Shown one piece after another: positions 3,601-60,604 of a stretch of 64,000 bases of DNA; the stretch's first letter is position 1, and the number at the start of each line of letters is the position of its first letter. This stretch comes from Sanguinoderma infundibulare (Eukaryota; Basidiomycota; Agaricomycetes; Polyporales; Polyporaceae), in assembly GCA_032821775.1 (NCBI GenBank), contig JAVLRN010000001.1:186001-250000 (forward strand), in the 5' to 3' direction. The notes beneath the pieces were generated by a model that was not told where the DNA came from, did no database searches, and was given only the letters and a program-made list of their open reading frames with translations. A program made the position numbers and the translations under genes.

Positions 3601-3619
3601 ATATATCGATAACCCTAGC

Positions 3620-10330: not shown

Positions 10331-10699
10331 TTCCTCTTGAGATCACTCTTCATACCATTATTCAATGTAGGGTACTTCATTTCATATCCCACTATATGCG
10401 CTAAGCGTTTGAATATAGATTATCTCACAAGTACTCCTGCAAGCCTCTCTCTTTGGGATCCTTCCCAAGAAAAACGTACATAACTGACGACCACTACGAC
10501 GACGATGCGCCCGCATTCCCAGACTGTTGCCTCTCAGCCTCTTCATACCCGGCCTCTGATGCTCCATTGCCTTCCTCGTCCGAAGTTTTCATCCCATCAT
10601 CTGTCGTATCATCCTCATTGCTATCGTCGTCTTGCTCGTCGTCGTCGTTTTCAGCCTCGTCCATATCCTCGCCGTCTGCACCTTGCATTGCTATACGGG

Positions 10700-35146: not shown

Positions 35147-35676
35147 GAGAGAAAGGCTCGAGAGAAAGCGGCAGGAGCAGATTGGGAGCAGATCTTGCAT
35201 CCGTGCGCCACGTGGGCGACGTGTTAGAATCGGCGCCTGTCCGGGAAAGGTGATTCGGACAAGGTTCACGGCAGACCACATCGTGCCCCAGTATCAACGG
35301 CGCCCTGGGCTACCGCAGCACACATCCTGGCTCCCTTTCGGGTCAGATTACATGCAAAATTTCCCAAGGACACAGTCCGCATACGTACGTCGTCACTTTG
35401 TGCGAACGCAAGTATATGACGAACGACAGTTTTCACAGGACCAGGATACCGTAGTTTGATAGTGGAAGCACGGATGAATAAAATGGAATTTTGGCGGTAC
35501 AATTTCTGGACTGCTCAAGTCAAACCTTGCTCCCCAGAACTCGGTTCATCCCGCCTGAGATGTCCTCGTTTCCACGAACTTTAATATGGGAAGCACCTGA
35601 ACAGCGTGTTCGTTTTTCAACTACATCTCCTCATCCTCACCTTTCCTCCACCGCTCACACAAGCATCCCTCTCTGC

Positions 35677-38600
35677 ATGGCTCCTAACATCCGCCTCAAG
35701 ACCAAGTCCTCCGAGACCCACGCTCACTGCGTTGGTGACGAATGCGTCGCCCTCCTCGATCCGGCACTCTTGGCCGACGACATCGCCATCGAAAATGCCG
35801 TCTGCACCCTCGAGCTCCATCTCTCCAACGCGGGGACAGACAAAGACGAGATCATCACTACCCTCGAGTCAGTCCCCAACCTCCTCGAGTTTGTCCTGTC
35901 TTGTACGTATAACGGCATGCTGCCTCAGACTTCGTCTACTCACGTTTCTGCTAGCCGTCAACGACCATTGTCTCGTTGTCTTCCACGACACAATTATGCA
36001 AAATTTCCCCACAAAGCCAGATGAGTTCGAATCATGCCTCGCTGCCCGCCTCCTCGACCGCTTTTCGCTTTCCCTCATTTTCATACCCTATCCAACTATG
36101 GGTAACACACCCTCATGGATCGTACACCATCGACGGTCTGTGGAGCGCGCCATTTCCCTCCTAAAGATTATTTGTGAACTTGCTTTCCACGACGACGTGA
36201 TCGAGGACGGCGAAGCCTCCGCTCCGTCGTCCCCGACTACTCGGCGCTCCCAGCGAAGCAGATGGCAGCAGTCGCGGCGGGAAAGTCGCGCTTCTGCGCG
36301 CTCCCTCCGCTCTCCTGTCATCGACACCAAGCCTTTTGCAGAATACGGAGTCGATGTTCCAAGGTCCGCCACCGAGTTGGCAGCGATATCTTCCAAGATC
36401 CTCGAAGACCAGAAGGCCATCCTCCAGGTGAGTACCCGTCGCGTTCATTGTGCGTGACTCGTTATCAACGTCTTTCGCAGGATTACGTCTACGCTTTCCG
36501 TCGTGAACCGCATGCCGCGGCCTTCAAGGCTGCTTATCTTGGTGTCCCCCAGCGGGTCGAAGACGATCGTCCCCAAGAGGCTGCTCCTGTAGTGCCATCC
36601 CCTGCGGAAGCTCCGAGCGAGGCCGACGCTGCTCCCGTGTACCCGCTCGTCCAGCCAATGAAAGCGGCCGTCTACTTCGACAGCGTTGACGGGTTCGGCG
36701 AGTGGCGCATTATCATCGGCGCCCGAGGTATCCGCGATCTTCGCCAGGCGCGAAAGCGGGACCCCAAAGGGTTCCAGATAATCGTAAAGAAGATGAAGTG
36801 AGCCACAAATCATGCTGAACTGTAACAGTGATCACTCACCCACCGCTGCAGGGAGCTCTCCAACGGTCACTTCACCGACGACAACCACAAGCAGCTCCTG
36901 GGCCAGGATGTTCCAGTTCCGATCTATGAGGCGAAAATGACGGGTGATACGCGACTCGTGGTGCGTGACATACTCGGGTATGCAATCCATAATTTCACTG
37001 ACACTTCGATAGTACCGCATACACTGCGCTCCGGACTTCGAGGCCAATGTACGTTTGTTATTCGATTCCCCACGGTTCTCACGCTCATCAAATTCACAGG
37101 CGGCCGGGGAGCGACAAGGTTAGGGAGGATTTTGAATCATGGTGTCCTGCAAGACTGACCGCAGCCTGGTGCCGCGACAGTCATCCTGGTCTACGGCATT
37201 TTTACGCACACCCAGATTGACCGCAAGTACGCGGTATGGGACCACATGGGCCAGTACCTTGCTAGGATGGGGCCGGAGTACCGCAAACGGTGCGTACCAG
37301 CGTGTTGCGCATGAGCCACTCTTCCTGACTGTGCCCTACCCCCATAGCTGTGTTGTCCGAAAGAAGGTTACGACTCGGCGCGGGGACCACGTTGTGCTTC
37401 CAGAGATGTTCGATGTCGCTTCGGCGTCGGAGGAGGCTCAAGCCGCTTCTCCGGACATCGTGGGTTTGAGCAAGGAGGACATGGAGCAGGTGCGTCGACT
37501 GGATTCATTTATCGGATGGTCGCTCATCGCATGCATCGTTAGCTCAATTCCCTAATTCTGTACGTATCTCCCGTGCGCGTGACGCGGACCGTGATTGACG
37601 CACCCGGGCCTTAGGGTGAATTCGAAGTTCGTCACGTTCTCTCAAGTAAGCGTGCTGCGTGCCTGCGGTATCACGGAGGGATGCATAACTGAATCGGCAT
37701 GCACAGGCTCTATTGAATAGCATTTTGGTCGACCAAGACTTCACCCACGTATTCGATGTGTCGTATGTGTCAAGGGGTTCCATGTGGTATCGTTGTGCTA
37801 ATGTATTTGTAGTCTTCGCGAGAAGGAAATCATCGAGCACACATCATCGTGCTTTGTTCTCGGTATGGCATTCTATCTCACTCCATGCTAACAGTGCTGG
37901 TGAACCTGATCCATTTCCGAACTCTAGGCCGAAGCGGGACTGGGTAGGTCTCTGCTCGCCTCCACACTTCGTAGTTCCCTCAGGCTGATCGTGCACAGGA
38001 AAACCACGGCCATGGTCTTCAAGATCCTCGGAATCCAGCGGACCTGGCAAACGTCATTCAAAGACACAATGCCGCAGCCCCGCCAGCTTTTTGTCACGAA
38101 GTCCCGCTTCCTCGCCGAGAAAGTCGAAGAGTACTTCTCGAAGCTGCTCCAATCTCTCGCCACCGCTAAGCTCTCCCCCGCCGAGCTGAAGGAAATGGCC
38201 TCGCGAGAACAGGGGCAGACCCGCAGACCGCTCATGCTCGATGCCGACGAAGAGCTGTTTTGGAGAAGTGACCTCCCGCAACGGTATGGAGCCCTCGAGG
38301 AGCACCATTTCCCCATGTTCTCGACGTTCGATCATGTAAGTCCTATTACATGGGTGGTGGGTACCGGTTGAAACGACGTGACCTGACGTTTCCGTATCCT
38401 CAGCTGTGTCGCTTGCTCGACCGCGAGTTCAAGCACATCCTCGAGCGATTGGAGAAGGAGCACGTGGTCTCTGCCATCATAAGAGACGTTCTCCAAAAGA
38501 AGCGCAGCGACCGCTCAGGAGGATACACGTCATATTCCGACCGCCGCCGTGACCAGTTGGTCGACTTTGCCAAGTTCGCGAACACGTACTGGCGGCACTT

Positions 38601-38876
38601 CCCCCAGGACCTCGTTAAGGATTTGAGTGAGTTCTTGCCAGGGAATACCTCGACGGTTGACACATCTGATGTGACGTTTTGTAGACGCGGATCTCGTCTT
38701 CAGCGAATTCATAGGTGCGTGCGGCTATTACTTGCTGGGTCCCTGATCGATGACGATACCTGCCAATAATAGGGCTCATCAAAGGGTCCGAAGACGCATT
38801 GAAATTCGAAGAGGGCCACCTGCACGAGGAAGCGTACCTGCAGTGGCACTCGTCACCGAACTCGACGCCGGCGTAG
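35677..38876 (+). pseudogene. UvrD/TRANK1-type helicase, 3'-truncated copy A1
   Basis: Spliced as in the complete copy, 21,785 bp to the right: 35677-35902, 35955-36427, 36481-36797, 36852-36960, 37013-37048, 37100-37118, 37181-37289, 37348-37489, 37543-37559, 37615-37645, 37707-37762, 37813-37862, 37928-37943, 37999-38335, 38404-38626, 38685-38714, 38773-38876. The frame is open throughout, about 764 residues. It carries EYGVDVPRSATELAA, the VYGIFTHTQIDRK region and a complete Walker A (GRSGTGKTT). Homology stops at 38819 inside the codons for EEGH. The frame then continues 18 codons into unrelated DNA (LHEEAYLQWHSSPNSTPA) and stops at 38874-38876. Walker B and motifs III-VI are absent, so no helicase activity is expected. 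The 5' region upstream is shared with the intact copy, so transcription is plausible. Confidence 0.85.
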
Positions 38877-38896
38877 AGCAGGGCGCGGGCGCGCAT
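38820..38896 (-). pseudogene. WSC-like domain fragment at the A1/B1 junction
   Basis: The minus strand reads ALLYAGVEFGDECHC, which fits the core of a WSC carbohydrate-binding domain (YAGVE-x-G-x-E-C-x-C). A possible donor (gtacgc) follows. Only about 25 residues remain, because the segment begins exactly where helicase homology ends. Its antisense supplies the extra tail of the truncated helicase. Confidence 0.5.
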
Positions 38897-38995
38897 GTAC
38901 GTATCCAGCAGATCAATACATTTGTTTCGCGGCTGATATCTGTGCTGAAATCTCCCGGATCGATCATTTGCCTCTGTACTCTTAGAGGGGACTGT

Positions 38996-39036
38996 ATTGG
39001 AGACGCCTGCATTGGAGACGCCTGCATTGGAGATGG
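38996..39036. repeat. 15-bp minisatellite, two full copies
   Basis: The unit attggagacgcctgc occurs at 38996-39010 and 39011-39025, followed by a partial copy. The second array unit has three copies, which accounts for the 15-bp difference between the two unit lengths. Confidence 0.95.
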
Positions 39037-39698
39037 AGGGCTGGACGGGGGCATAGTTGAGACAGACTTTCGGAGGGCGGTACTCGAGTTGGGGCGGTGG
39101 ATTGGACGTGGAGAACCTGTCTGGGGGAGGAGATAGTCGCCTCTCAGAGGGAGCGAGGTTTGAGTTGGGGATGCCGAGGGAGAGGTAGTCTTGTGCTCAG
39201 AGGGAGGAGGGCGGTCAGAGTCGGATTCTCGGGGGACCAGACATTTTAATTGAGCGGAGGATATTCTAAAGACATACGCATGAGATATACAAACGTACAG
39301 CGTGCGATCTACGACCGAAAAGAAACAAATGAGCCCGCCACGGCCGCAGAAATACGGCCGAGTCCACGGGCGCCTATCTACTCGTACAAGCGAGAGGCGA
39401 CACAGCTCTCCTTCCACTGCACGCCACCACCTCCGCGACTCCGTCTCTCGCCGCTGCTGCTTATTCTTGTCAAATTGCGACTCTGTGGGCTTTGGAGAGG
39501 TCAGAACTTGTGCTGGACTTGACTTGGGACTCACTGGGCTGGCCTGCTTCTGCTCCGACATGCGCCTGAAATCGCCTCAAAGGGATAACTCTTGTTCACC
39601 GAGCTCCTGGAGCCCTTTCGGCAGTACAGGCCCTGGAGCGTTGATGCGACGTTGAGGAGTGCCGAGAGTCCAGAGGTTGTTCGGCGACCCAATACTGA

Positions 39699-39920
39699 GT
39701 GCGAGAGACTGCGGTGCCGGTACAATTGAGGTGCATGCGCCTGTGCGAGGGTCGGGTCCCCAAGGAGACGTTCGGCGTGAAGGCGTTCAGCATGGAGGAA
39801 GAAAAGGGCAGCGTCGACTACTACGCCGTCGTGCACAGACTGAAGGAGAAGATCTCGGCAGGTGTAGCCCAGAAGACTCGATGGTCTGTCGTGGATCATG
39901 ATGCACTCGGGAGCCTTGCA
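39699..39920 (+). other. Unrecognised coding-like segment in B1
   Basis: The plus strand reads MRLCEGRVPKETFGVKAFSM, then YYAVVHRLKEKISAGVAQKT and WSVVDHDALGSLAG, before a donor-like gtgcgt. The composition looks like real protein, but no start, end or family could be fixed. A duplicate lies at 50599-50820. Confidence 0.3.
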
Positions 39921-39974
39921 GGTGCGTCTTTATGCCTACAAGGATACGTCAGGTTCAGGTTTGCGAAAGCACAA

Positions 39975-40364
39975 TGTCAACAACTCACTGCTTCGGAATA
40001 AAGGCCAGCGCGTCCTCGAGCGGGAGGTCCTTGAGCGTGAGCTTGAATGGCGCTTCCTCGAGAGACTCCAGGAAGGCGGGGTCTGGAGGCGGCCTCGGCC
40101 TCGGCCTTGGGGGATGTAGATCTGGCTGCTGTTGTTGGGCTTGGCTTGGTAGGTGCGGATGACGGTGAGGAGCTCGGCGTAGTCACACTTGGGGGTGAAG
40201 ACGGAGTTGAGGAAGCGGAGGGACATGGCGTAGAGGTCAAAGTTGCCATGGAAGGAGGGCGGGGAAGGCGCGTCGGTCGTCTTGTTGGGCTTCTGCACAT
40301 ATGCGTTCAGTGAGGGAAGAAGACGGGGTAAGACTGTTGGACTCACGGGCTGTGACTCAGACAT
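39975..40364 (-). pseudogene. Unrecognised protein gene with apparent frameshift in a hexamer repeat
   Basis: The ATG at 40364 gives MSESQP. An intron (gtgagt to tgtgcag) joins it to KPNKTTDAPSPPSFHGNFDL, YAMSLRFLNSVFTPKCDYAE and AKPNNSSQIYIP. The frame then changes within the run ggcctcggcctcggccttgg (about 40086-40110) to one reading DPAFLESLEEAPFKLTLKD, LPLEDALAFIPKQ. Both parts look genuinely coding, so a length change in the hexamer run probably broke the gene. The family is unknown. An identical second copy is at 50875-51264, including the lesion. Confidence 0.45.
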
Positions 40365-41133
40365 GCGGCGCTCTGGTGATGGCAGGAGTTCGGGTTGGGG
40401 CTGGCGACAGCGGCGAGGGCAAGAAGGAGACAGGCCGGGGGAGAAGCTGGTCCCGGGTCGCAAAGCGACGCACTTCTCCCAGACGACTCCCGCAAGACCC
40501 GTCAAGTCTCCCGGCCGGGACATTAAAAATTGTCCCGGCTGGGAGATATGTGTCTCGCCTCGAGCGGTCAGTAATTCATGTCAACGGCTGACACAAAACA
40601 TTCCGAGGGCGACCACCAGAAGCAACACCGCGTCCCAGAGCAACCCATATCTCCCGGATGACTTCAGAATGCGTGCATCAAGTCTTCCAGCCCCATGACG
40701 GTTATTCCCTGCATGGAGCATGGGAATAGCCTTTCAGGACTGAGAGACTTGACGTGTCTGTCTGAGGACGTCCGGGAGCAATATGTTTCGCTTTGCAACG
40801 CGCTCGGGAGCTCCAGAACATGCAACATCAGTATTTTCCACTCAAATGCGATGCTCACATGCGCACACAGCTCGGGGAAGTTCTGCACCACCGCCCCGAT
40901 CCTCCAGCGCAACCGCGTCTTCCCCGACATCAAACGTCAGAAGCGAAGACAATCGTGGTCACGGAGCAGGCCATCAAGGAGCTCCCGCATGCGATCTCTA
41001 TGAACCGGCCTATCCCTGAAGACTTTGACAGCAGCTGCAAGCAGCTCAACGGCCCACCATGAATGCCGGGGCTGACGACACTTGGCCATGGCCATGAGAA
41101 TCTACAGCAGAAGGGCGAGATTGTGGCACTCAC

Positions 41134-41834
41134 TATCGCATAGCAGTTCACAAGCTCTTTCATTGCCGTCTCGAACGACTCCAAGTCTTCGGCATAACAC
41201 CATAAATGGCACAGCTCCTCGAATGCATCAAATATCGTCTTCAACCTAATCTTCCGTGTGAGGATCTGCATTGACAGAGGAGGTAAAGTGATACGTACTC
41301 TGTTTGTGGCGTCACATTGCAGAGCATCAAACTCAGGCAGAGCTCCGGAAAACTGGCCTAGGATAAATACGGGACGCAGTAAAGGCTTGAATTGATTCAC
41401 AGACACTCACAGGGTTGCAAAGCGCAGGGCCTGCCACGAGTAGAGCTCTGGCGCGAAGATGTGGGTGGGGGGAAGACGGAGGAGCTGCACGCGCCACGCT
41501 CAACCTCAGGGATACCTTGGCCTAATCTGTCATGAGAACTCACGTAGAAGCAGTGGATGAGGTCTGCAGCTGTGACCCAGAGGTCATAACGTCCTGCGGG
41601 CCTGTACAGGAACTTGCTGGTCGTGCACGTGTCAAAGGTGATAATGTTGAAGTTGGCGTTCAGGCGAGGATCGTCCAGTTGGGGATGGAGCCAGGTGTGG
41701 TCGAGAAAGAGCGGATGGAGCATGACCAGGGTTGGCTTCTCGGGATCGAAGCCGCTGACGTTCTGCGAAGCGGCGTTGGTGGTGTACCATATGGATGCAT
41801 AGTCGTCAGAAGAGATGAGGTCGACGTAGGGCAT
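41134..41834 (-). pseudogene. Alpha/beta-hydrolase, C-terminally truncated (copy in B1)
   Basis: The start ATG is at 41834 (MPYVDLISSDDYASIWYTTN). Exons: 41834-41544, 41484-41411, 41352-41299, 41245-41134. The translation includes PTLVMLHPLFLDHTWLHPQ (the strand carrying the oxyanion-hole region), NFNIITFDT, PPTHIFAPELYSWQALRF and FPELCLSLMLCNVTPQTE, then LKTIFDAFEELCHLWCYAED. These are typical of an agaricomycete alpha/beta-hydrolase group. The usual nucleophile-elbow G-x-S-x-G is not seen (A-P-E-L-Y-S-W-Q-A occupies that place), and after ETAMKELVNCYAIV the rest of the domain, with the expected catalytic Asp and His, is missing. The reading continues into unrelated sequence with a stop near 40937. 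Substrate unknown. Confidence 0.65.
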
Positions 41835-41839
41835 GGCTG

Positions 41840-42590
41840 GGACTGCGGGACTCAGGACAGAGGGACGGCAGGGCGGGCGATGCAGGAGACGACTCTACAC
41901 AACATGTGCATGAGCAGAGCAGAGCAGAGCGATGGCCGAGTGCGCGTACGCGGGGTGTGTGCCTAAGCAAACGCAAAGGATCAATACACGCTCGGATGAT
42001 GACAGTATGTCACGCAATGATGAATTATGAGATGGTCCGAGCACTTCCTCCCACGTATCATCTGGGTCTCGAACCCCACCGCAGTTGATTTACACACGCC
42101 GTGGATCACTCAATGTCACAAATCTAAAATATGATCCCATCCGAGCAAGCGACAACCACGGACGGTGGCCCAGCCACAGTCTCCCATTCAACATATGATC
42201 CAGAGCGTCGGGCCCGCCCACACCATACACAACAGTAAACACCACTCACCCGCTGTTCCGCCCGTGTCCAATTTCGCTTACTGCTCTGTGTTCCGGGCGC
42301 AGCATCCGAGTCCGTCGCGTCGGCAACTTCACCCTGATCTCCCGAGTGTGATCTTGATGTCATATTGCGCCAGAACGCTGTTCGCGGGGGCCGAGAGAGT
42401 CGACGAGGTTCTACGGAGCGTCGTACGACACTGTACTAAGCCCCCGAATGTTCCTAGTCAGCCGTCCTGTCGCCGTGCAATTGTCAGCGCATCGCGAATG
42501 TTCCCTTTCGGTGACGACTTCTTCCCAGCAACGGCCTTCACTGAGGTAACAACCAATGATTGGCATCGCCATCATACTCGCAAGCGATTC
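41840..42590. other. No gene seen in this part of B1
   Basis: Only short frames on both strands. The same sequence recurs at 52740-53490. Confidence 0.35.
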
Positions 42591-42619
42591 TATCTAGAAA
42601 TGGTCTTTGTAAGATGGAT

Positions 42620-42802
42620 GATCGAGATCGTAGAAATGACAGTTGCTTCCAGCCACTCCAAGAGCTCGAAGTACAGCACGGAGCGGTCGAACATGTCCAT
42701 GAGGGAGTCGTTGCGCAGGAGCTGGCTGCTAACAAAGTTGAACTGTTGACGGAGGTGCGCGAGCGTGACCGGATGGGGGAGGAAGTCGCTGTCAAAGTGC
42801 AC
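42620..42802 (-). pseudogene. Unrecognised protein fragment in B1
   Basis: The minus strand reads HFDSDFLPHPVTLAHLRQQF, NFVSSQLLRNDSLMDMFDRS and VLYFELLEWLE, clearly protein-like and helical, before the frame degenerates. It resembles a conserved exon of a large agaricomycete protein that I cannot name with confidence. A duplicate lies at 53520-53702. Confidence 0.4.
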
Positions 42803-43099
42803 GGTGCTTTCTCGCTGGCGCCCTTGAAACTGCGATCAAACCGCGCATTTCCCCACTGCACCCACCAGCAGCCGAAGCCCTCGCGATCATCGCGGCCAGT
42901 GTCGAGGAGCGTACGACGCTCGGTTTCATTGCGTGAGGGAGCCCTGCAGGGAGAGACAGAGCGGATGTCAGTGGTTTGCCCGCCCGACGAAAAACATTCA
43001 CGCCCACTCGTACCGCTTCGTTTCGACAAATAATCGCGCACGCGCGCAACTCGGCTGACTCGTCTGAAGTCTCCTCGGGCACCGAACAGCTGTACGAAA

Positions 43100-44090
43100 C
43101 CAAATTCCAGGAATCAAGAAATTAGGTCCGGTCCGGCAGAGAGGCGACCGCGCATTCCGAGCGTATTTCAAAATCGCGTCAACGAGCAGGCGAACGGTCT
43201 GGGATGATGCTGCGGTGCCTAGAAATCATCGCATAATGATTCGAGGGCGGGCGGAGAACCGTGAGAGGCGGAAGGGTTGTCATTGATCGTCTTTGCATGC
43301 CCACCCGAGCCAAGCTCCCGGATGTTCCTTCGCCGCTATTCTGTCACCGCGGTGACGTTCGTGCGTCGTTGGAGGGTCTCTTCTTCTGCCTGGATGGTCG
43401 GGTTGGATGAGGGTTTCAATGGGTAAGACGAGGAGACGCACCCTGAGAATCTCGGATCCACGCCAGGACTCCCTAATGCATCATTCAGAGTTGCAACATC
43501 CGTCGTGTCCACCTACTATTTGTTGCACGATCGCTGTAGGGTTTGAAAAGTCATGTTAAACAGCCAAGATGACCGCCGAGGGCGGAGGAGGGGCGGGAGA
43601 GCAGATGCGCCGCCCGGGCCCGCCCACCGACGAAAACCGCCAAGACAGAATTTTCAAAATGTCGTCCAGAGACAGTACAAACGCTTCAAACGCGTTGTAA
43701 AAGATCCCCCGAGCCCGTAGAAACAGTCCGCTCGGCCATCCGACAAGAGCTGAGGGCGGGAGAGGGCGTACATTCTCGACCGCCATGGAATCGCGTCAAA
43801 AACACGATTTTACGAACCTCTTTGAACCGCCGTGTAAACTGCATCGAGGGTCTAGAAACATGTTCAAGTCGATAATAGACTTGATTTCTAAACGAATAGA
43901 GACATACAACGTAAGTTACGACAAAACTTGGGGGTCCCGACCTTCAATATTCCACCTCTCCCGCTCTGAAACGGTCGTATCCACGCCGAATCGCACATTC
44001 TAGCTTCGCGAACATTGCTCGATGCCGCGACAATCGACGCCAGGCCCGTCCGAGGCAGAATCCAAAAAGTTGAAAATCGTCGTACTAGGG
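43100..44090. other. No recognisable gene in this part of B1
   Basis: Short frames only. A plus-strand ATG at 44022 opens a 58-codon frame (MPRQSTPGPSEAESKK) that runs into the 310-bp repeat, with no support as a gene. Duplicated at 54000-54990. Confidence 0.3.
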
Positions 44091-44099
44091 TCCGCCTCC

Positions 44100-44670
44100 T
44101 TGGGCAGCAAACTCGAAACAGCTTCGACGGCCGCACCGACGAGTGCAGATGGTGCGGACGTGTTCTGGAATCCTCGAAAGCCAGTTCAGCACATGTGAAT
44201 AGTCGGCGTTCGGGAGATATGACACATTTTCTGGGGGCGGCGGCCGAGCATCCACCGCGACCAAGGCCAGAACTCATCCCCGCCACGACGACGGTTGGAT
44301 GGCGTTCGTAGAGGACGTAAGCCATTCTGTGATCACCGTTTGATGGCGAGGCGATGGTCCTATCGGGGCGCAATTGCGAAATTTGGTGGGCAGGGCGGGC
44401 CGCGCGCCCTTGGGCAGCATGTTCGAAACAGCTTGTACGGCCGCCATGACGAATGCTGATGGTGGGGAGGAGTCCCAGGATTCCAGAATGCCTGTTCGAC
44501 ACGCGTGGATGGGCGGCGTTCGGGTGATACGATGCGTTTTCTTGGGGCGGCGGCCGAGCATCCGCCGCGACCGAGGCCAGAACTCATCCCCGCCATGCCG
44601 ATGGTTGGATGGCGTTTGTAGAGGACGTAGGCCGTTCTGTGATCGCCGTTTGATGGCGGTGCGATGGTCC
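44100..44670. repeat. Internal tandem repeat, 310-bp period, two diverged copies
   Basis: 44100-44360 and 44410-44670 align end to end (both begin ttgggcagca and end gcgatggtcc) with visible divergence, so the duplication predates the 10.9-kb array. Open frames cross the repeat on the minus strand (for example HRMAYVLYERHPT and HRTAYVLYKRHPT), but I cannot tell which frame, if any, is used. Confidence 0.85.
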
Positions 44671-44999
44671 GATTGAGGACGAGAGTCGTGGCTTCGGTTT
44701 CGTCAACTTCGAGAACCACGACGAGGTTCGGCGAGGGCGGGCAGCGACAGAGCTGGCCTACCGGCGGCCACATCCGTGTGTGTTCTGATCTGCAATATTG
44801 ATGGCGGTCAGGGGCGAGAGTAAGCGTGTGTTTGGGATAGGCGGGAGCTGGGAGATGGAGCGCTCGCTTGCGGGAGGCGAGACGGGATGGCAGGGACGCG
44901 AGCGTAATGACGGCCGGGCCTCGGAAACAGACCTGACAGATGGCATGACAGCGAGGGCGAGTCCGCGGTCTGCGCACGGACTCTGATACAGGGTATTAA

Positions 45000-46031
45000 A
45001 AGCTGTAAAGAAAGGGGAAGGATGGCATGAGTGTTGTGCATTGCCCCCCCCCCGCCGTCCGCGTCCTCTGCATCCTCACCTCGTCTTCGTTCACCGCGTA
45101 CGTCCTGACCTCGCATGCGTTCTCCCCGTTGCTGACTGCGTCTTTGTCCCCCACATGCTCATCTTGTGGTGGCCTGGTGGTCCTGGGTGGCGTCGGTCGT
45201 GCCGACTGTCGTCGTCGACGTCCGAACGGGCGGGGGGACAGCGGAGACTGACTTGAAAATGATGGTGTCGAAGGTGAGCGTTTTGATGAGCGTTTGGACG
45301 TAGGCGCGGTGCTGACAGTGCGTATGTGTAGACGATGGGTCGGATTGGGAGACGGAGTGAGTTGACGTACATCAGGACATCGGGGGAGCACGTACCTAGA
45401 TAACTGGTCTCATGCCTGTTCTCGGCATCTGGCACGAAAAGTACACCTTGCGTTAGGGTGCGCACTAAGTGGGCGGGTGACAACAAGCACGCCGCGCCCC
45501 TCTCGCCGGCATACGCGGACCCGAACGGCCTGCCCGCGCAGTGGCGCAAGATGTGCGCGGAGGGCGCGCCCACGGGCGATCCTGACAAAGGTCTGTTATT
45601 TTTGTTTTTGATCATCATTGCGGGGTTCGCTCACCATCTGCGACTCGGCAGTGGGCCGCGAACGTGCTCAACGCGCCCTTGCGCGTGCCGCTCGGCGCGG
45701 GCTCATGGTGCGTTCCGGGGTGTAGGAAGGCGCTTGGCTGATTGAGCGTTCCGGCTGGGGCGACGGTGCATGGGAGTACAGAACGGCAGATATGATGCTG
45801 GAGGACGATAGGCTGGGGGTGATAGGAGGACAGACGACATCTGGTTCATGGGTGACAGCGATCGCAGGTGAGGGCATCTCATGAAGTGAGTCAACGATTG
45901 GGGAAGGGGCATCGTGGCCGGATAGCACAGCAGGCGAGGTGGCGTCGCGAACGCGCCATACGTCATCGGCGGGAAGTGGAAGGAGATCGGCAAGGAGTTC
46001 GAGGAGTGGAAGGATCTCGGGCTGTGTGCAC
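45000..46031. other. Right part of B1 with coding-like remnants
   Basis: A plus-strand stretch at 45460-45590 reads KWAGDNKHAAPLSPAYADPN and QWRKMCAEGAPTGDPDKG, and one at 45960-46030 reads KWKEIGKEFEEWKDLGLCA. Both look like exon remnants of unknown genes. A run of ten C lies at about 45044-45053. Confidence 0.3.
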
Positions 46032-49761: not shown

Positions 49762-49781
49762 AGCAGGGCGCGGGCGCGCAT
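49705..49781 (-). pseudogene. WSC-like domain fragment at the A2/B2 junction
   Basis: Second copy of the 25-residue fragment (YAGVEFGDECHC), with one base change relative to the copy at 38820-38896. Confidence 0.5.
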
Positions 49782-49880
49782 GTACGTATCCAGCGGATCA
49801 ATACATTTGTTTCGCGGCTGATATCTGTGCTGAAATCTCCCGGATCGATCATTTGCCTCTGTACTCTTAGAGGGGACTGT

Positions 49881-49936
49881 ATTGGAGACGCCTGCATTGG
49901 AGACGCCTGCATTGGAGACGCCTGCATTGGAGATGG
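49881..49936. repeat. 15-bp minisatellite, three full copies
   Basis: attggagacgcctgc at 49881-49895, 49896-49910 and 49911-49925, plus a partial fourth; unit 1 has two full copies. Confidence 0.95.
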
Positions 49937-50598
49937 AGGGCTGGACGGGGGCATAGTTGAGACAGACTTTCGGAGGGCGGTACTCGAGTTGGGGCGGTGG
50001 ATTGGACGTGGAGAACCTGTCTGGGGGAGGAGATAGTCGCCTCTCAGAGGGAGCGAGGTTTGAGTTGGGGATGCCGAGGGAGAGGTAGTCTTGTGCTCAG
50101 AGGGAGGAGGGCGGTCAGAGTCGGATTCTCGGGGGACCAGACATTTTAATTGAGCGGAGGATATTCTAAAGACATACGCATGAGATATACAAACGTACAG
50201 CGTGCGATCTACGACCGAAAAGAAACAAATGAGCCCGCCACGGCCGCAGAAATACGGCCGAGTCCACGGGCGCCTATCTACTCGTACAAGCGAGAGGCGA
50301 CACAGCTCTCCTTCCACTGCACGCCACCACCTCCGCGACTCCGTCTCTCGCCGCTGCTGCTTATTCTTGTCAAATTGCGACTCTGTGGGCTTTGGAGAGG
50401 TCAGAACTTGTGCTGGACTTGACTTGGGACTCACTGGGCTGGCCTGCTTCTGCTCCGACATGCGCCTGAAATCGCCTCAAAGGGATAACTCTTGTTCACC
50501 GAGCTCCTGGAGCCCTTTCGGCAGTACAGGCCCTGGAGCGTTGATGCGACGTTGAGGAGTGCCGAGAGTCCAGAGGTTGTTCGGCGACCCAATACTGA

Positions 50599-50820
50599 GT
50601 GCGAGAGACTGCGGTGCCGGTACAATTGAGGTGCATGCGCCTGTGCGAGGGTCGGGTCCCCAAGGAGACGTTCGGCGTGAAGGCGTTCAGCATGGAGGAA
50701 GAAAAGGGCAGCGTCGACTACTACGCCGTCGTGCACAGACTGAAGGAGAAGATCTCGGCAGGTGTAGCCCAGAAGACTCGATGGTCTGTCGTGGATCATG
50801 ATGCACTCGGGAGCCTTGCA
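50599..50820 (+). other. Unrecognised coding-like segment, second copy
   Basis: Identical by eye to 39699-39920 (MRLCEGRVPKETFG), with the same limits on interpretation. Confidence 0.3.
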
Positions 50821-50874
50821 GGTGCGTCTTTATGCCTACAAGGATACGTCAGGTTCAGGTTTGCGAAAGCACAA

Positions 50875-51264
50875 TGTCAACAACTCACTGCTTCGGAATA
50901 AAGGCCAGCGCGTCCTCGAGCGGGAGGTCCTTGAGCGTGAGCTTGAATGGCGCTTCCTCGAGAGACTCCAGGAAGGCGGGGTCTGGAGGCGGCCTCGGCC
51001 TCGGCCTTGGGGGATGTAGATCTGGCTGCTGTTGTTGGGCTTGGCTTGGTAGGTGCGGATGACGGTGAGGAGCTCGGCGTAGTCACACTTGGGGGTGAAG
51101 ACGGAGTTGAGGAAGCGGAGGGACATGGCGTAGAGGTCAAAGTTGCCATGGAAGGAGGGCGGGGAAGGCGCGTCGGTCGTCTTGTTGGGCTTCTGCACAT
51201 ATGCGTTCAGTGAGGGAAGAAGACGGGGTAAGACTGTTGGACTCACGGGCTGTGACTCAGACAT
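50875..51264 (-). pseudogene. Unrecognised frameshifted gene, second copy
   Basis: Same sequence and same hexamer-run lesion as 39975-40364, so the frameshift happened before the unit was duplicated. Confidence 0.45.
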
Positions 51265-52033
51265 GCGGCGCTCTGGTGATGGCAGGAGTTCGGGTTGGGG
51301 CTGGCGACAGCGGCGAGGGCAAGAAGGAGACAGGCCGGGGGAGAAGCTGGTCCCGGGTCGCAAAGCGACGCACTTCTCCCAGACGACTCCCGCAAGACCC
51401 GTCAAGTCTCCCGGCCGGGACATTAAAAATTGTCCCGGCTGGGAGATATGTGTCTCGCCTCGAGCGGTCAGTAATTCATGTCAACGGCTGACACAAAACA
51501 TTCTGAGGGCGACCACCAGAAGCAACACCGCGTCCCAGAGCAACCCATATCTCCCGGATGACTTCAGAATGCGTGCATCAAGTCTTCCAGCCCCATGACG
51601 GTTATTCCCTGCATGGAGCATGGGAATAGCCTTTCAGGACTGAGAGACTTGACGTGTCTGTCTGAGGACGTCCGGGAGCAATATGTTTCGCTTTGCAACG
51701 CGCTCGGGAGCTCCAGAACATGCAACATCAGTATTTTCCACTCAAATGCGATGCTCACATGCGCACACAGCTCGGGGAAGTTCTGCACCACCGCCCCGAT
51801 CCTCCAGCGCAACCGCGTCTTCCCCGACATCAAACGTCAGAAGCGAAGACAATCGTGGTCACGGAGCAGGCCATCAAGGAGCTCCCGCATGCGATCTCTA
51901 TGAACCGGCCTATCCCTGAAGACTTTGACAGCAGCTGCAAGCAGCTCAACGGCCCACCATGAATGCCGGGGCTGACGACACTTGGCCATGGCCATGAGAA
52001 TCTACAGCAGAAGGGCGAGATTGTGGCACTCAC

Positions 52034-52734
52034 TATCGCATAGCAGTTCACAAGCTCTTTCATTGCCGTCTCGAACGACTCCAAGTCTTCGGCATAACAC
52101 CATAAATGGCACAGCTCCTCGAATGCATCAAATATCGTCTTCAACCTAATCTTCCGTGTGAGGATCTGCATTGACAGAGGAGGTAAAGTGATACGTACTC
52201 TGTTTGTGGCGTCACATTGCAGAGCATCAAACTCAGGCAGAGCTCCGGAAAACTGGCCTAGGATAAATACGGGACGCAGTAAAGGCTTGAATTGATTCAC
52301 AGACACTCACAGGGTTGCAAAGCGCAGGGCCTGCCACGAGTAGAGCTCTGGCGCGAAGATGTGGGTGGGGGGAAGACGGAGGAGCTGCACGCGCCACGCT
52401 CAACCTCAGGGATACCTTGGCCTAATCTGTCATGAGAACTCACGTAGAAGCAGTGGATGAGGTCTGCAGCTGTGACCCAGAGGTCATAACGTCCTGCGGG
52501 CCTGTACAGGAACTTGCTGGTCGTGCACGTGTCAAAGGTGATAATGTTGAAGTTGGCGTTCAGGCGAGGATCGTCCAGTTGGGGATGGAGCCAGGTGTGG
52601 TCGAGAAAGAGCGGATGGAGCATGACCAGGGTTGGCTTCTCGGGATCGAAGCCGCTGACGTTCTGCGAAGCGGCGTTGGTGGTGTACCATATGGATGCAT
52701 AGTCGTCAGAAGAGATGAGGTCGACGTAGGGCAT
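52034..52734 (-). pseudogene. Alpha/beta-hydrolase, C-terminally truncated (copy in B2)
   Basis: Second copy of the hydrolase fragment at 41134-41834, same exon pattern (52734-52444, 52384-52311, 52252-52199, 52145-52034) and same truncation, without differences that I noticed. Confidence 0.65.
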
Positions 52735-53519
52735 GGCTGGGACTGCGGGACTCAGGACAGAGGGACGGCAGGGCGGGCGATGCAGGAGACGACTCTACAC
52801 AACATGTGCATGAGCAGAGCAGAGCAGAGCGATGGCCGAGTGCGCGTACGCGGGGTGTGTGCCTAAGCAAACGCAAAGGATCAATACACGCTCGGATGAT
52901 GACAGTATGTCACGCAATGATGAATTATGAGATGGTCCGAGCACTTCCTCCCACGTATCATCTGGGTCTCGAACCCCACCGCAGTTGATTTACACACGCC
53001 GTGGATCACTCAATGTCACAAATCTAAAATATGATCCCATCCGAGCAAGCGACAACCACGGACGGTGGCCCAGCCACAGTCTCCCATTCAACATATGATC
53101 CAGAGCGTCGGGCCCGCCCACACCATACACAACAGTAAACACCACTCACCCGCTGTTCCGCCCGTGTCCAATTTCGCTTACTGCTCTGTGTTCCGGGCGC
53201 AGCATCCGAGTCCGTCGCGTCGGCAACTTCACCCTGATCTCCCGAGTGTGATCTTGATGTCATATTGCGCCAGAACGCTGTTCGCGGGGGCCGAGAGAGT
53301 CGACGAGGTTCTACGGAGCGTCGTACGACACTGTACTAAGCCCCCGAATGTTCCTAGTCAGCCGTCCTGTCGCCGTGCAATTGTCAGCGCATCGCGAATG
53401 TTCCCTTTCGGTGACGACTTCTTCCCAGCAACGGCCTTCACTGAGGTAACAACCAATGATTGGCATCGCCATCATACTCGCAAGCGATTCTATCTAGAAA
53501 TGGTCTTTGTAAGATGGAT

Positions 53520-53702
53520 GATCGAGATCGTAGAAATGACAGTTGCTTCCAGCCACTCCAAGAGCTCGAAGTACAGCACGGAGCGGTCGAACATGTCCAT
53601 GAGGGAGTCGTTGCGCAGGAGCTGGCTGCTAACAAAGTTGAACTGTTGACGGAGGTGCGCGAGCGTGACCGGATGGGGGAGGAAGTCGCTGTCAAAGTGC
53701 AC
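53520..53702 (-). pseudogene. Unrecognised protein fragment, second copy
   Basis: Second copy of 42620-42802 (HFDSDFLPHPVTLAHLRQQF), apparently identical. Confidence 0.4.
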
Positions 53703-54999
53703 GGTGCTTTCTCGCTGGCGCCCTTGAAACTGCGATCAAACCGCGCATTTCCCCACTGCACCCACCAGCAGCCGAAGCCCTCGCGATCATCGCGGCCAGT
53801 GTCGAGGAGCGTACGACGCTCGGTTTCATTGCGTGAGGGAGCCCTGCAGGGAGAGACAGAGCGGATGTCAGTGGTTTGCCCGCCCGACGAAAAACATTCA
53901 CGCCCACTCGTACCGCTTCGTTTCGACAAATAATCGCGCACGCGCGCAACTCGGCTGACTCGTCTGAAGTCTCCTCGGGCACCGAACAGCTGTACGAAAC
54001 CAAATTCCAGGAATCAAGAAATTAGGTCCGGTCCGGCAGAGAGGCGACCGCGCATTCCGAGCGTATTTCAAAATCGCGTCAACGAGCAGGCGAACGGTCT
54101 GGGATGATGCTGCGGTGCCTAGAAATCATCGCATAATGATTCGAGGGCGGGCGGAGAACCGTGAGAGGCGGAAGGGTTGTCATTGATCGTCTTTGCATGC
54201 CCACCCGAGCCAAGCTCCCGGATGTTCCTTCGCCGCTATTCTGTCACCGCGGTGACGTTCGTGCGTCGTTGGAGGGTCTCTTCTTCTGCCTGGATGGTCG
54301 GGTTGGATGAGGGTTTCAATGGGTAAGACGAGGAGACGCACCCTGAGAATCTCGGATCCACGCCAGGACTCCCTAATGCATCATTCAGAGTTGCAACATC
54401 CGTCGTGTCCACCTACTATTTGTTGCACGATCGCTGTAGGGTTTGAAAAGTCATGTTAAACAGCCAAGATGACCGCCGAGGGCGGAGGAGGGGCGGGAGA
54501 GCAGATGCGCCGCCCGGGCCCGCCCACCGACGAAAACCGCCAAGACAGAATTTTCAAAATGTCGTCCAGAGACAGTACAAACGCTTCAAACGCGTTGTAA
54601 AAGATCCCCCGAGCCCGTAGAAACAGTCCGCTCGGCCATCCGACAAGAGCTGAGGGCGGGAGAGGGCGTACATTCTCGACCGCCATGGAATCGCGTCAAA
54701 AACACGATTTTACGAACCTCTTTGAACCGCCGTGTAAACTGCATCGAGGGTCTAGAAACATGTTCAAGTCGATAATAGACTTGATTTCTAAACGAATAGA
54801 GACATACAACGTAAGTTACGACAAAACTTGGGGGTCCCGACCTTCAATATTCCACCTCTCCCGCTCCGAAACGGTCGTATCCACGCCGAATCGCACATTC
54901 TAGCTTCGCGAACATTGCTCGATGCCGCGACAATCGACGCCAGGCCCGTCCGAGGCAGAATCCAAAAAGTTGAAAATCGTCGTACTAGGGTCCGCCTCC

Positions 55000-55570
55000 T
55001 TGGGCAGCAAACTCGAAACAGCTTCGACGGCCGCACCGACGAGTGCAGATGGTGCGGACGTGTTCTGGAATCCTCGAAAGCCAGTTCAGCACATGTGAAT
55101 AGTCGGCGTTCGGGAGATATGACACATTTTCTGGGGGCGGCGGCCGAGCATCCACCGCGACCAAGGCCAGAACTCATCCCCGCCACGACGACGGTTGGAT
55201 GGCGTTCGTAGAGGACGTAAGCCATTCTGTGATCACCGTTTGATGGCGAGGCGATGGTCCTATCGGGGCGCAATTGCGAAATTTGGTGGGCAGGGCGGGC
55301 CGCGCGCCCTTGGGCAGCATGTTCGAAACAGCTTGTACGGCCGCCATGACGAATGCTGATGGTGGGGAGGAGTCCCAGGATTCCAGAATGCCTGTTCGAC
55401 ACGCGTGGATGGGCGGCGTTCGGGTGATACGATGCGTTTTCTTGGGGCGGCGGCCGAGCATCCGCCGCGACCGAGGCCAGAACTCATCCCCGCCATGCCG
55501 ATGGTTGGATGGCGTTTGTAGAGGACGTAGGCCGTTCTGTGATCGCCGTTTGATGGCGGTGCGATGGTCC
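55000..55570. repeat. Internal 310-bp tandem repeat, second array copy
   Basis: Counterpart of 44100-44670, halves at 55000-55260 and 55310-55570. The divergence between the halves is the same as in unit 1. Confidence 0.85.
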
Positions 55571-56931
55571 GATTGAGGACGAGAGTCGTGGCTTCGGTTT
55601 CGTCAACTTCGAGAACCACGACGAGGTTCGGCGAGGGCGGGCAGCGACAGAGCTGGCCTACCGGCGGCCACATCCGTGTGTGTTCTGATCTGCAATATTG
55701 ATGGCGGTCAGGGGCGAGAGTAAGCGTGTGTTTGGGATAGGCGGGAGCTGGGAGATGGAGCGCTCGCTTGCGGGAGGCGAGACGGGATGGCAGGGACGCG
55801 AGCGTAATGACGGCCGGGCCTCGGAAACAGACCTGACAGATGGCATGACAGCGAGGGCGAGTCCGCGGTCTGCGCACGGACTCTGATACAGGGTATTAAA
55901 AGCTGTAAAGAAAGGGGAAGGATGGCATGAGTGTTGTGCATTGCCCCCCCCCCGCCGTCCGCGTCCTCTGCATCCTCACCTCGTCTTCGTTCACCGCGTA
56001 CGTCCTGACCTCGCATGCGTTCTCCCCGTTGCTGACTGCGTCTTTGTCCCCCACATGCTCATCTTGTGGTGGCCTGGTGGTCCTGGGTGGCGTCGGTCGT
56101 GCCGACTGTCGTCGTCGACGTCCGAACGGGCGGGGGGACAGCGGAGACTGACTTGAAAATGATGGTGTCGAAGGTGAGCGTTTTGATGAGCGTTTGGACG
56201 TAGGCGCGGTGCTGACAGTGCGTATGTGTAGACGATGGGTCGGATTGGGAGACGGAGTGAGTTGACGTACATCAGGACATCGGGGGAGCACGTACCTAGA
56301 TAACTGGTCTCATGCCTGTTCTCGGCATCTGGCACGAAAAGTACACCTTGCGTTAGGGTGCGCACCAAGTGGGCGGGTGACAACAAGCACGCCGCGCCCC
56401 TCTCGCCGGCATACGCGGACCCGAACGGCCTGCCCGCGCAGTGGCGCAAGATGTGCGCGGAGGGCGCGCCCACGGGCGATCCTGACAAAGGTCTGTTATT
56501 TTTGTTTTTGATCATCATTGCGGGGTTCGCTCACCATCTGCGACTCGGCAGTGGGCCGCGAACGTGCTCAACGCGCCCTTGCGCGTGCCGCTCGGCGCGG
56601 GCTCATGGTGCGTTCCGGGGTGTAGGAAGGCGCTTGGCTGATTGAGCGTTCCGGCTGGGGCGACGGTGCATGGGAGTACAGAACGGCAGATATGATGCTG
56701 GAGGACGATAGGCTGGGGGTGATAGGAGGACAGACGACATCTGGTTCATGGGTGACAGCGATCGCAGGTGAGGGCATCTCATGAAGTGAGTCAACGATTG
56801 GGGAAGGGGCATCGTGGCCGGATAGCACAGCAGGCGAGGTGGCGTCGCGAACGCGCCATACGTCATCGGCGGGAAGTGGAAGGAGATCGGCAAGGAGTTC
56901 GAGGAGTGGAAGGATCTCGGGCTGTGTGCAC

Positions 56932-59900
56932 GAGAGAAAGGCTCGAGAGAAAGCGGAGGGAGCAGATTGGGAGCAGATCTTGCATCTGCGTGCCACGTGG
57001 GCGACGTGTTAGAATCGGCGCCTGTCCGGGAAAGGTGATTCGGACAAGGTTCACAGCAGACCACGTCGTGCCCCAGTATCAACAGCGCCCTGGGCTACCG
57101 CAGCACACATCCTGGCGCCCTTTCGGGTCAGATTACATGCAAAATTTCCCAAGGACACAGTCCGCATACGTACGTCGTCACTTTGTGCGAACGCAAGTAT
57201 ATGACGAACGACAGTTTTCACAGGACCAGGATACCGTAGTTTGATAGTGGAAGCACGGATGAATAAAATGGAATTTTGGCGGTACAATTTCTGGACTGCT
57301 GAAGTCAAACCTTGCTCCCCAGAACTCGGTTCATCCCGCCTGAGATGTCCTCGTTTCCACGAACTTTAATATGGGAAGCACCTGAACAGCGTGTTCGTTT
57401 TTCAACTACATCTCCTCATCCTCACCTTTCCTCCACCGCTCACACAAGCATCCCTCTCTGCATGGCTCCTAACATCCGCCTCAAGACCAAGTCCTCCGAG
57501 AGCCACGCTCACTGCGTTGGTGACGAATGCGTTGCCCTCCTCGATCCGGCACTCTTAGCCGACGACATCGCCGTCGAAAATGCCGTCTGCACCCTCGAGC
57601 TCCATCTCTCCAACGCGGGCACAGACAAAGACGAGATCCTCGCTACCCTCGAGTCAGTCCCCAACCTCCTCGAGTTTGTCCTGTCTTGTACGTATAACGG
57701 CATGCTGCCTCAGACTTCGTCTACTCACATTTCTGCTAGCCGTCGACGACCATTGTCTCGTTGTCTTCCACGACACAATTATGCAAAATTTCCCCACAAA
57801 GCCAGATGAGTTCGAATCATGCCTCGCTGCGCGCCTCCTCGACCGGTTCTCCCTTTCCCTCATTTTCATACCCTATCCAACTATGGGTAACACACCCTCA
57901 TGGATCGTAGACCATCGACGGTCTGTGGAGCGCGCCGTTTCCCTACTAAAGATTATCGGTGAACTTGCTTTCAACGACAACGCGATCGAGGACGGCGAAG
58001 CCTCCGCTCCGTCGTCCCCGACTGCCCGACGCTCTCAGCGAAGTAGATGGCAGCAGTCCCGGCGGGAAAGTCGCGCTTCTGCGCGCTCCCTCCGCTCTCC
58101 TGTCATCGACACAAAGCCTTTTGCAGAATACGGAGTCGACGTTCCAAGGTCCGCCGCCGAGTCGGCAGCGGTATCTGCCAAGATCCTCGAAGACCAAAAA
58201 TGCATTCTTCAGGTGAGTACCCGTCGCGTTCATTGTGCGTGACTCGTTATCGACCTCTTTCGCAGGATTACGTTTATGCTTTCCGTCGCGAACCGCATGC
58301 CGCGGCCTTCAAGGCTGCTTATCTTGGTGTCCCCCAGCGGGTCGAAGACGATCGTCCCCAAGAGGCCGCTCCTGTAGTGCCATCCCTGGCGGAAGCTCCG
58401 AGCGAGGCCGACGCTGCTCCCGCGTACCCGCTCGTCCAGCCAATGAAAGCGGCCGTCTACTTCGACAGCGTTGACGGGTTTGGCGAGTGGCGCATTATCA
58501 TCGGCACCCGAGGTATCCGCGATCTTCGCCAGGCGCGAAAGCGGGACCCCAAAGGGTTCCAGATAATCGTAAAGAAGATGAAGTGAGCTACAAACCATGC
58601 TGAACAGTATCAGTAATCACTCACCCACCGCTACAGGGAGCTCTCCAACGGTCACTTCACCGACGATAACCACAAGCAGCTCCTGGGCCAGGATGTTCCA
58701 GTTCCGATCTATGAGGCGAAAATGACGGGCGATACGCGACTCGTGGTGCGTGACATACTCGTGTATGCAATCCATAATTTCGCTGATGCTTCGATAGTAC
58801 CGCATCCACTGCGCTCCGGACTTCGAGGCCAATGTACGTTTGTTATTCGATTCCCCACGGTTCTCATGCTCATCAAATTCACAGGTCGCCGGGGAGCGAC
58901 AAGGTTAGGGAGGATTTTGAATCATGGTGTCCTACAAGACTGACCGCAGCCTGGCGCCGCGACAGTCATCCTGGTCTATGGTATTTTTACGCACACCCAG
59001 ATTGACCGCAAGTACGCGGTATGGGACCACATGGGCCGGCATCTTGCTAGGATGGGGCCGGAGTACCGCAAACGGTGCGTACCAGCGTGTTGCGCATGAG
59101 CCACTCTTCCTGACTGTGCCCTACCCCCATAGCTGTGTTGTCCGAAAGAAGGTTACGACTCGGCGCGGGGACCACGTTGTGCTTCCAGAGATGTTCGATG
59201 TCGCTTCGGCGTCGGAGGAGGCTCAAGCCGCTTCTCCGGACATCGTGGGTTTGAGCAAGGAGGACGTGGAGCAGGTGCGTCGACTGGATTCATTTATCGG
59301 ATGGTCGCTCATCGCATGCATCGTTAGCTCAATTCCCTAATTCTGTACGTATCTCCCGTGCGCGTGACGCGGACGGTGATTGACGCACCCGGGCCTTAGG
59401 GTGAATTCGAAGTTCGTCACGTTCTCTCAAGTAAGCGTGCTGCGTGCCTGCGGTATCACGGAGGGATGCATAACTGAATCGGCATGCACAGGCTCTATTG
59501 AATAGCATTTTGGTCGACCAAGACTTCACCCACGTATTCGATGTGTCGTATGTGTCAAGGGGTTCCATGTGGTATCGTTGTGCTAATGTATTTGTAGTCT
59601 TCGCGAGAAGGAAATCATCGAGCACACATCATCGTGCTTTGTTCTCGGTATGGCATTCTATCTCACTCCATGCTAACAGTGCTGGTGAACCTGATCCATT
59701 TCCGAACTCTAGGCCGAAGCGGGACTGGGTAGGTCTCTGCTCGCCTCCACACTTCGTAGTTCCCTCAGGCTGATCGTGCACAGGAAAACCACGGCCATGG
59801 TCTTCAAGATCCTCGGAATCCAGCGGACCTGGCAAACGTCATTCAAAGACACAATGCCGCAGCCCCGCCAGCTTTTTGTCACGAAGTCCCGCTTCCTCGC

Positions 59901-60604
59901 CGAGAAAGTCGAAGAGTACTTCTCGAAGCTGCTCCAATCTCTCGCCACCGCTAAGCTCTCCCCCGCCGAGCTGAAGGAAATGGCCTCGCGAGAACAGGGG
60001 CAGACCCGCAGACCGCTCATGCTCGATGCCGACGAAGAGCTGTTTTGGAGAAGTGACCTCCCGCAACGGTATGGAGCCCTCGAGGAGCACCATTTCCCCA
60101 TGTTCTCGACGTTCGATCATGTAAGTCCTATTACATGGGTGGTGGGTACCGGTTGAAACGACGTGACCTGACGTTTCCGTATCCTCAGCTGTGTCGCTTG
60201 CTCGACCGCGAGTTCAAGCACATCCTCGAGCGATTGGAGAAGGAGCACGTGGTCTCTGCCATCATAAGAGACGTTCTCCAAACGAAGCGCAGCGACCGCT
60301 CAGGAGGATACACGTCGTATTCCGACCGCCGCCGTGACCAGTTGATCGACTTTGCCAAGTTCGCGAACACGTACTGGCGGCACTTCCCCCAGGACCTCGT
60401 TAAGGATTTGAGTGAGTTCTTGCCAGGGAATACCTCGGCGGTTGACACATCTGATGTGACGTTTTGTAGACGCGGATCTCGTCTTCAGCGAATTCATAGG
60501 TGGGTGCTGCTATTACTTGCTGGGTCCCTGATCGATGACGATACCTGCCAATAATAGGGCTCATCAAAGGGTCCGAAGATGCGTTGAAATTCGAAGAGGG
60601 CCAC
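56932..60604. repeat. Array unit 3, part A only
   Basis: Third direct copy of the A part. Homology to units 1 and 2 ends at 60604, after gagggccac; from there the sequence continues as normal helicase coding exons. This marks unit 3 as the one retaining the original gene structure. Confidence 0.95.

Follow-up and report, generated by a model that had tools for sequence, protein, structure and literature searches.

Tandem copies of a helicase gene fragment alternate with a module shared by other arrays in Sanguinoderma infundibulare

Introduction

How a tandem array originates at a gene that has no repeats flanking it is a long-standing question. In the parts of the published accounts used here, the CUP1 arrays of yeast are described as having arisen by unequal non-homologous recombination at a gene that was present once and had no repeats at its flanks (PMC4232551). 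In the EPSPS array of Kochia, a mobile element goes with each repeat of a tandemly arrayed host gene, and unequal crossing over and microhomology have been invoked; this element bears genes of its own and is found on either border of the array (PMC6808082). The Z. bailii segment of wine yeast is reported from several genomic places, with a circle proposed and tandem integration considered; its entry is described as non-homologous, its copies as circularly permuted, and its origin was tested and works (PMC3053389). The core duplicons of primates combine a shared core with other duplicated sequence at different loci, in an interspersed arrangement (PMC9132208).

Here we describe an array in a 64-kb stretch of contig C1 (C1:186001-250000, hereafter the window), together with the sequences related to it in a searched genome of 48.9 Mb in 87 contigs. 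Coordinates without a contig name are those of the window.

Results

The window contains an array of the form A(BA)2

Comparison of the assembled window with itself revealed the array A1-B1-A2-B2-A3, i.e. A(BA)2, in which all the A parts are direct copies and in which A, not B, stands at both borders. Its parts are:

35142..38837, plus strand: A1, leftmost copy of the 5' portion of a gene for a UvrD-like helicase, cut short by B1
38838..46026, unstranded: B1, a 7189-bp composite in which a coding signature is mostly absent
46027..49722, plus strand: A2, the middle copy, truncated; A3-like to alignment column 2449 and A1-like from column 3357
49723..56926, unstranded: B2, 7204 bp
56927..60622, plus strand: A3, the rightmost copy, which runs into the remainder of the gene
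60623..63868, plus strand: Y, the putative 3' part of the helicase gene, with open frames; the gene's true end may differ

The stretch 35142-49722 recurs at 46027-60622 (99.1% identity over 14596 bp, with one gap), and 35142-38837 recurs at 56927-60622 (97.3%, gap-free). A first-pass annotation of this DNA had already recognised the array, placing its start 5 bases and its end 18 bases away from the borders found here, and had called the two B parts nearly identical, which is borne out by a count of 4 substitutions between B1 and B2, plus a difference of one 15-bp repeat unit.

A composite put together roughly from A3 and Y exon pieces matched 106 proteins at E <= 0.001, in a search that scored the 7993 candidates with most shared words. 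The best helicase matches were 41% identical and were named from Dichomitus squalens, and many of the matching proteins carry UvrD Pfam domains; Y also gave a UvrD_C_2 match (E 0.0097), which lies below Pfam's cut-off. With the best of the 106 matches at 41%, a close relative usable as an empty-site allele was not found among the 7993 candidates scored. An open frame at 60539-60739 spans the A3/Y boundary, and A3 alone among the A copies runs on uninterrupted; A1 and A2 both reach an in-frame stop 18 codons past the last residue that they have in common with A3. A holds the 5' portion of a gene for a UvrD-like helicase, and this gene is uninterrupted at A3-Y alone. A could also be imagined as the LTR of a retrotransposon (LTR-internal-LTR). 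This is ruled out, since A is part of a host helicase and continues into Y. A diverged helicase relative is present on the minus strand at 4520-9004 (read from 9004 to 4520), with A-type and then Y-type exons in the same order. At the DNA level, A was represented, among the matches listed, by the three array copies and by two weak pieces on contig C4.

Elsewhere, the window contains a stretch that matches its own reverse complement (12512-13125; 617 bp aligned, 93.7%), a direct duplication (319-2082 and 10614-12313; 83.7% identical), short tandem repeats with GCTTAACG-type units (22856-23117) and a fungal protein-kinase domain (27763-29163). Together with the protein matches of the helicase composite, this domain suggests that the DNA comes from a mushroom-forming fungus.

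The A copies form a mosaic with a homogenised zone

Each of the three A copies measures 3696 bp, and their gap-free alignment has 104 variable columns. A1 alone differs at 87 of these (A1-only sites); 13 are A3-only and 4 A2-only. Columns 1-2449 hold 86 A1-only and 2 A2-only sites and no A3-only site; columns 2450-3356 hold 2 A2-only sites and no other variants, so that A1 equals A3 throughout these 907 bp; and columns 3357-3696 hold 13 A3-only sites and 1 A1-only site. The A1-only sites span column 5 to column 2449 and the A3-only sites column 3357 to column 3691, apart from a stray A1-only site at column 3391, which lies beyond the switch and makes it less than perfectly clean. Such an ordering of A1-only and A3-only sites would hardly arise by chance (Fisher P 2e-15). 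This three-way alignment, which had been proposed as a check, upholds the earlier description of A2 as equal to A3 and unlike A1 over the first ~2.4 kb (to column 2449), and as equal to A1 and unlike A3 near the end (from column 3357, bar column 3391). The seven example sites given for it were correct within 4 bases (true positions 37481, 37590, 38498, 38560, 38653, 38718 and 38795). The exchange had been placed at about 37.6-38.5 kb, in agreement with columns 2450-3356 (37591-38497), but the zone in which the copies have been homogenised is wider:

37258..38497, unstranded: exchange zone, in A1 coordinates (columns 2117-3356), marked by near-identity of A1 and A3 and by A2-only sites

This zone of 1240 bp holds 2 of the 100 A1/A3 differences, with 33.5 expected (binomial P 2e-15). 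The likeness extends to DNA not assigned to exons, where A1 and A3 differ at 1 of 621 positions, compared with 53 of 864 such positions in columns 536-2116. All four A2-only sites also lie in the zone (P 0.013 if evenly spread, for a zone picked post hoc). The 0.9-kb interval of uncertainty (columns 2450-3356) reflects more than a scarcity of markers: it is a tract that has been homogenised, because A1 and A3 show no difference at all in it. Note that columns 1-535 are less divergent (11/535) than the next 1581 (73/1581), which fits none of the models discussed below. In exons h1-h3 there are 9 amino-acid-changing differences, compared with the ~17 to be expected if A1, once truncated, had been free to drift during half of the divergence; the test is weak (Poisson P 0.025), and both its exon model and its rate are rough.

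B is a composite with variable ends

The pieces of B that are referred to below are:

38947..38972, plus strand: 26-mer at the left end of B1
49832..49857, plus strand: 26-mer at the left end of B2
44690..45090, plus strand: B-core piece used for counting, 401 bp
44098..44673, plus strand: two 266-bp direct copies in the B core, 310 bp apart and 82% alike
38837..38876, unstranded: patch of 40 bp where A meets B, matching C3:4297208-4297247 (minus strand) at 95% identity
41083..41962, unstranded: 880-bp patch, 94% identical to C3:1226716-1227595
45700..45953, unstranded: 254-bp patch, 95% identical to C17:512685-512938
44675..44725, plus strand: fragment reading GFGFVNFEN, with a 40-bp match at C5:1532631

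We take the 880-bp patch to resemble an alpha/beta-hydrolase fragment, and a Pfam search with it gave no hit; the GFGFVNFEN fragment presumably resembles an RNA-recognition-motif exon. The conserved motif of B might conceivably belong to a Pol III promoter. B was provisionally set aside as a coding element: none of the B1 open frames tried gave a Pfam hit above the cut-off, and a general excess of synonymous changes was absent in the comparison with five other B copies, the windows closest to such an excess (38850, 43050 and 44700) containing stops as well. It was also set aside as a known RNA: at the gathering threshold the window matched no Rfam family, and B1 matched none at E 1. Across six aligned B copies, seven stretches of 18-33 bases are invariant. 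The 33 bases at 44951-44983, invariant in six B copies, contain by eye a possible hairpin (GAGTCCG / CGGACTC).

B1 contains 17 inverted pairs of at least 14 bp, none of which joins its two ends. The termini of B are not constant either, as the left end varies among the loci compared and the right tails consist of different blocks shared in different arrays. The varying termini and the lack of end-pairing inverted repeats (>=14 bp) speak against a transposon with fixed ends. The B tails of the C13 minus-strand and C3 arrays have a 453-bp block in common (90%); at the search used, it was not found between these tails and the B tail of the window.

B recurs in tandem runs beside different genes

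The numbers of B copies given here are lower bounds, from searches that scored the best candidates. B as query gave at least 121 matches, the long ones at regular spacing. The 401-bp core piece gave at least 34, namely 33 long matches and the 40-bp match on C5. Thirty-two of the 33 long matches lie in tandem runs and one lies between two A copies; by locus they are distributed as 2 on C1, 5 on the plus and 3 on the minus strand of C13, 2 on C58, 8 on C22, 1 and 2 at separate places on C3, 4 on C5, and 2 each on C48, C51 and C75. The single core, at C3:3.894 Mb, sits between two A copies of the C22 type (A-B-A, C3:3.884-3.899 Mb).

The 26-mer occurs genome-wide in at least 39 copies at <=2 mismatches, and its inner 19-mer in at least 51; the reversed controls gave 0 in both cases. 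Thirteen runs, of 2 to 9 copies each at a spacing of 9.6-16.1 kb, account for 45 of the 51 19-mers, and the other six stand alone (C1:216, C3:3887864, C17:10630, and one each on C58, C75 and C84). The B core was found in 8 of the 13 runs; in 5 (C1 at 138-162 kb, C8, two on C17, and C31) it was not matched among the matches listed.

Several runs have features of their own. At C1:138255-162051, ~24 kb to the left of the window, three 19-mers lie exactly 11889 bp apart without a B-core match. At C8:554924-654755 there are nine 19-mers spaced by 12.2-12.7 kb, and only a short left-end piece is common with B (136-bp query). In the C22 run (C22:19247-99578) the first five copies are spaced by 13.22 and 13.04 kb in turn, and a long left-end match is followed by a short one, which looks like the repetition of paired units. 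The solitary 19-mer at base 216 of C1 is near the contig end, and by eye a telomere repeat was not seen in the first 1500 bases (C1:1-1500).

The A segments of the other arrays point to different genes. Above Pfam's cut-off, the C3 segment matched an amino acid permease (E 3e-45) and the C22 segment an RNase PH domain (E 6e-8); just below it were an O-methyltransferase (C13 plus strand) and an F-box (C5). The frames tried in the C13 minus-strand array and the second C22 frame gave no Pfam hit. The helicase and hydrolase pieces of the window were not found (E 0.001) in the stretches fetched from C13, C3, C22 and C5, and two B pieces were found in those same stretches. The B-module copies found here adjoin different genes, all in arrays, and the module may help to make arrays.

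Arrays end in A, and their copies differ in pattern

At all six right ends inspected (C1, C13 plus, C13 minus, C5, C22 and C3) no B follows the last A, which gives way to other DNA within about 0-110 bp of the point where the inner A copies pass into B; on C3, A stops at 4166803, matching a point 47 bp before the left homology of B. The left ends of the C1 and C13 plus-strand arrays were read base by base. In both, A begins where the inner B ends, with few matching bases at the break. The arrays have the form X-A-(B-A)n-Y. B does not look native, because the array starts and finishes with A and because A3 continues the gene. That B was native beside A and was duplicated with it is ruled out by the A that borders the C1 array on both sides.

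Among the six A copies of the C13 plus-strand array (column counts include gap columns), A0 alone differs at 26 columns, none beyond 457, and A5 alone at 156, none before 621; at two columns, 519 and 563, A0 and A5 agree against all the inner copies, and both columns lie at the switch of this array. The inner copies are not uniform: A3=A4 stand apart at 28 columns and A3=A4=A5 at 24. The four copies of the C13 minus-strand array have no clean outer-only pattern. There, 63 columns split A0=A1 from A2=A3, A1 alone differs at 28, A0=A3 differ from the rest at 5, and A0 alone differs at 230, many of them within ~300 non-homologous columns on the left. In the C5 array the last pair of A copies, which was the pair compared, differs by 0-6%, with no switch that could be placed.

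Discussion

Origin of the array

The main pattern in A is explained by one homologous exchange within A, much as the single unequal crossover of the first-pass annotation had it, but the direction of the exchange is not unique. A2 had been taken for the recombinant, which fits the three copies; hybrid outer copies give the identical pattern, and the three A copies alone cannot decide which of them are hybrid. We tentatively favour, at a little under even odds, the entry of a composite A-B unit into the native helicase gene by a crossover in A, with the outer copies as the hybrids. The array would sit at the native place of the UvrD-like helicase gene, and the unit would consist of a 3.7-kb helicase fragment, with an allele of its own, plus B. 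A single homologous crossover within A, accompanied by patchy conversion nearby, would join the unit to the gene and give X-A1-B-A3-Y. The second unit could have come along in a two-unit molecule or been added by a later unequal crossover, and by either route the visible switch would mark the entry. The left part of A1 and the right part of A3 would then be native, the remaining parts of these two copies would derive from the unit, and A2 would carry the unit's own allele; repair in the exchange zone would leave both outer copies native, producing A2-only sites, or both unit-like, producing no difference. The unit presumably existed before its entry, it may have been circular, its A allele may have come from another haplotype or strain, B would have had a part in the amplification, and the events probably followed one another in the order given.

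We lean towards this entry because the mosaic comes with a homogenised zone that holds 4/4 A2-only sites, because the outer-versus-inner columns of the C13 plus-strand array lie at its switch, because A borders the array on both sides and A3 continues the gene, because 6/6 right ends stop near the left join of B, because B contains patches that share 94-95% identity with host loci elsewhere and, weakly, because exons h1-h3 carry fewer amino-acid-changing differences than expected. Against it, the three copies fit an A2 recombinant equally well, the C13 minus-strand array has no clean outer-only pattern and the C13 plus-strand array varies among its inner copies, the comparison on C5 placed no switch, the low divergence of columns 1-535 is unexplained, and the stray column 3391 requires patchy repair here too.

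The best rival is the route of the first-pass annotation, which yields the same main pattern: an older, diverged A1-B-A3 would have undergone an unequal crossover of A3 with A1 between chromatids, leaving A2 as the recombinant. The order of variants in A2 and the near-identity of B1 and B2 agree with this, and the A-B-A place on C3, with another A, lends substance to the proposed original state. However, where A1-B-A3 came from is unaccounted for, and neither the near-identity of A1 and A3 in the exchange zone nor the confinement of the A2-only sites to it is predicted, so that further conversion is needed; we regard this route as possible, if somewhat unlikely. Repeated unequal exchange and conversion could instead have homogenised the inside of the array and spared the outward-facing half of each end copy, which would stay divergent, an idea that McAllister and Werren reportedly put forward in 1999. 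The six-copy C13 plus-strand array, in which divergence is confined to the outer halves of the array, and the patchwork in the C13 minus-strand array look like such concerted evolution, but two units offer little inside to homogenise and one switch suffices in C1, and we consider it improbable for this locus.

Template-switching replication, in which a broken A/Y end copies B and the patches and returns into A to give X-A-B-A-Y, with the divergence and the second unit arising later, would account for the presence of patches that match other loci, including the 40-bp patch placed exactly at the A/B junction, and for the few matching bases at the X/A break. It would nevertheless leave the ~4% A1/A3 difference to later divergence, against which the weak exon test speaks, and it would require the same donor B repeatedly at different genes; we think it very unlikely. 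We give equally little credence to an assembly artefact: two A1-B-A3 haplotypes misjoined in a near-identical stretch of A would give the same picture, and A1 equals A3 over 907 bp, but B1 and B2 differ at 5 places and so are not one stretch used twice, they differ far less than A1 and A3 do, and C1 is a contig of 4.9 Mb in a genome where similarly spaced runs of 2 to 9 copies occur on many contigs.

Extending the entry of an A-B unit to the other loci, B could be a non-coding selfish module whose conserved left end makes or captures breaks, and which would gather fragments of other loci, circularise with a piece of the local gene into a unit that B helps to maintain, and return to the site of that gene by homologous recombination, giving A(BA)n at many genes. 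We offer this as a speculation that is rather doubtful at present. Should the module prove to be the driver, ordinary host genes of a fungus would be amplified through the action of a non-coding agent. One genome offers 13 19-mer runs, 8 of them with a B core, and a native break readable at six right ends; the first step is testable between isolates, because the entry model specifies, for each outer copy, the half that should agree with an empty-site allele.

Comparison with known systems

As expected for unequal homologous exchange, the A copies are direct and their shared variants switch at one zone. As occurs with Kochia EPSPS, every host-gene repeat comes with an extra shared element (PMC6808082). 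Unlike the element in that account, B is mostly non-coding and has its core in arrays at several loci, and A stands at both ends (PMC6808082); an element at the borders, of the Kochia type, was seen neither in the C1 array, which is bordered by A, nor at any of the six right ends, which are without B. The arrays resemble the Z. bailii segment in being built on a segment that occurs at several loci of a fungal genome, the circle being in our case a supposition about the unit, and differ from what is described there in that the array occupies the native locus of its A (PMC3053389). They resemble the CUP1 arrays in that a tandem array has formed out of one gene copy that had no repeats at its flanks, and differ in the B module between the copies, no such foreign module being described in the part of the CUP1 account used here (PMC4232551). 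In the literature, taken mostly at abstract level, we recognised no account of tandem arrays that involve different fungal genes and have a module in common. With core duplicons, as far as that account goes, our arrays have in common a core accompanied by varying sequence; unlike them, the core here lies in tandem runs (PMC9132208). Amplification by unequal exchange is known from such systems, and the shared module is the unusual part of this one.
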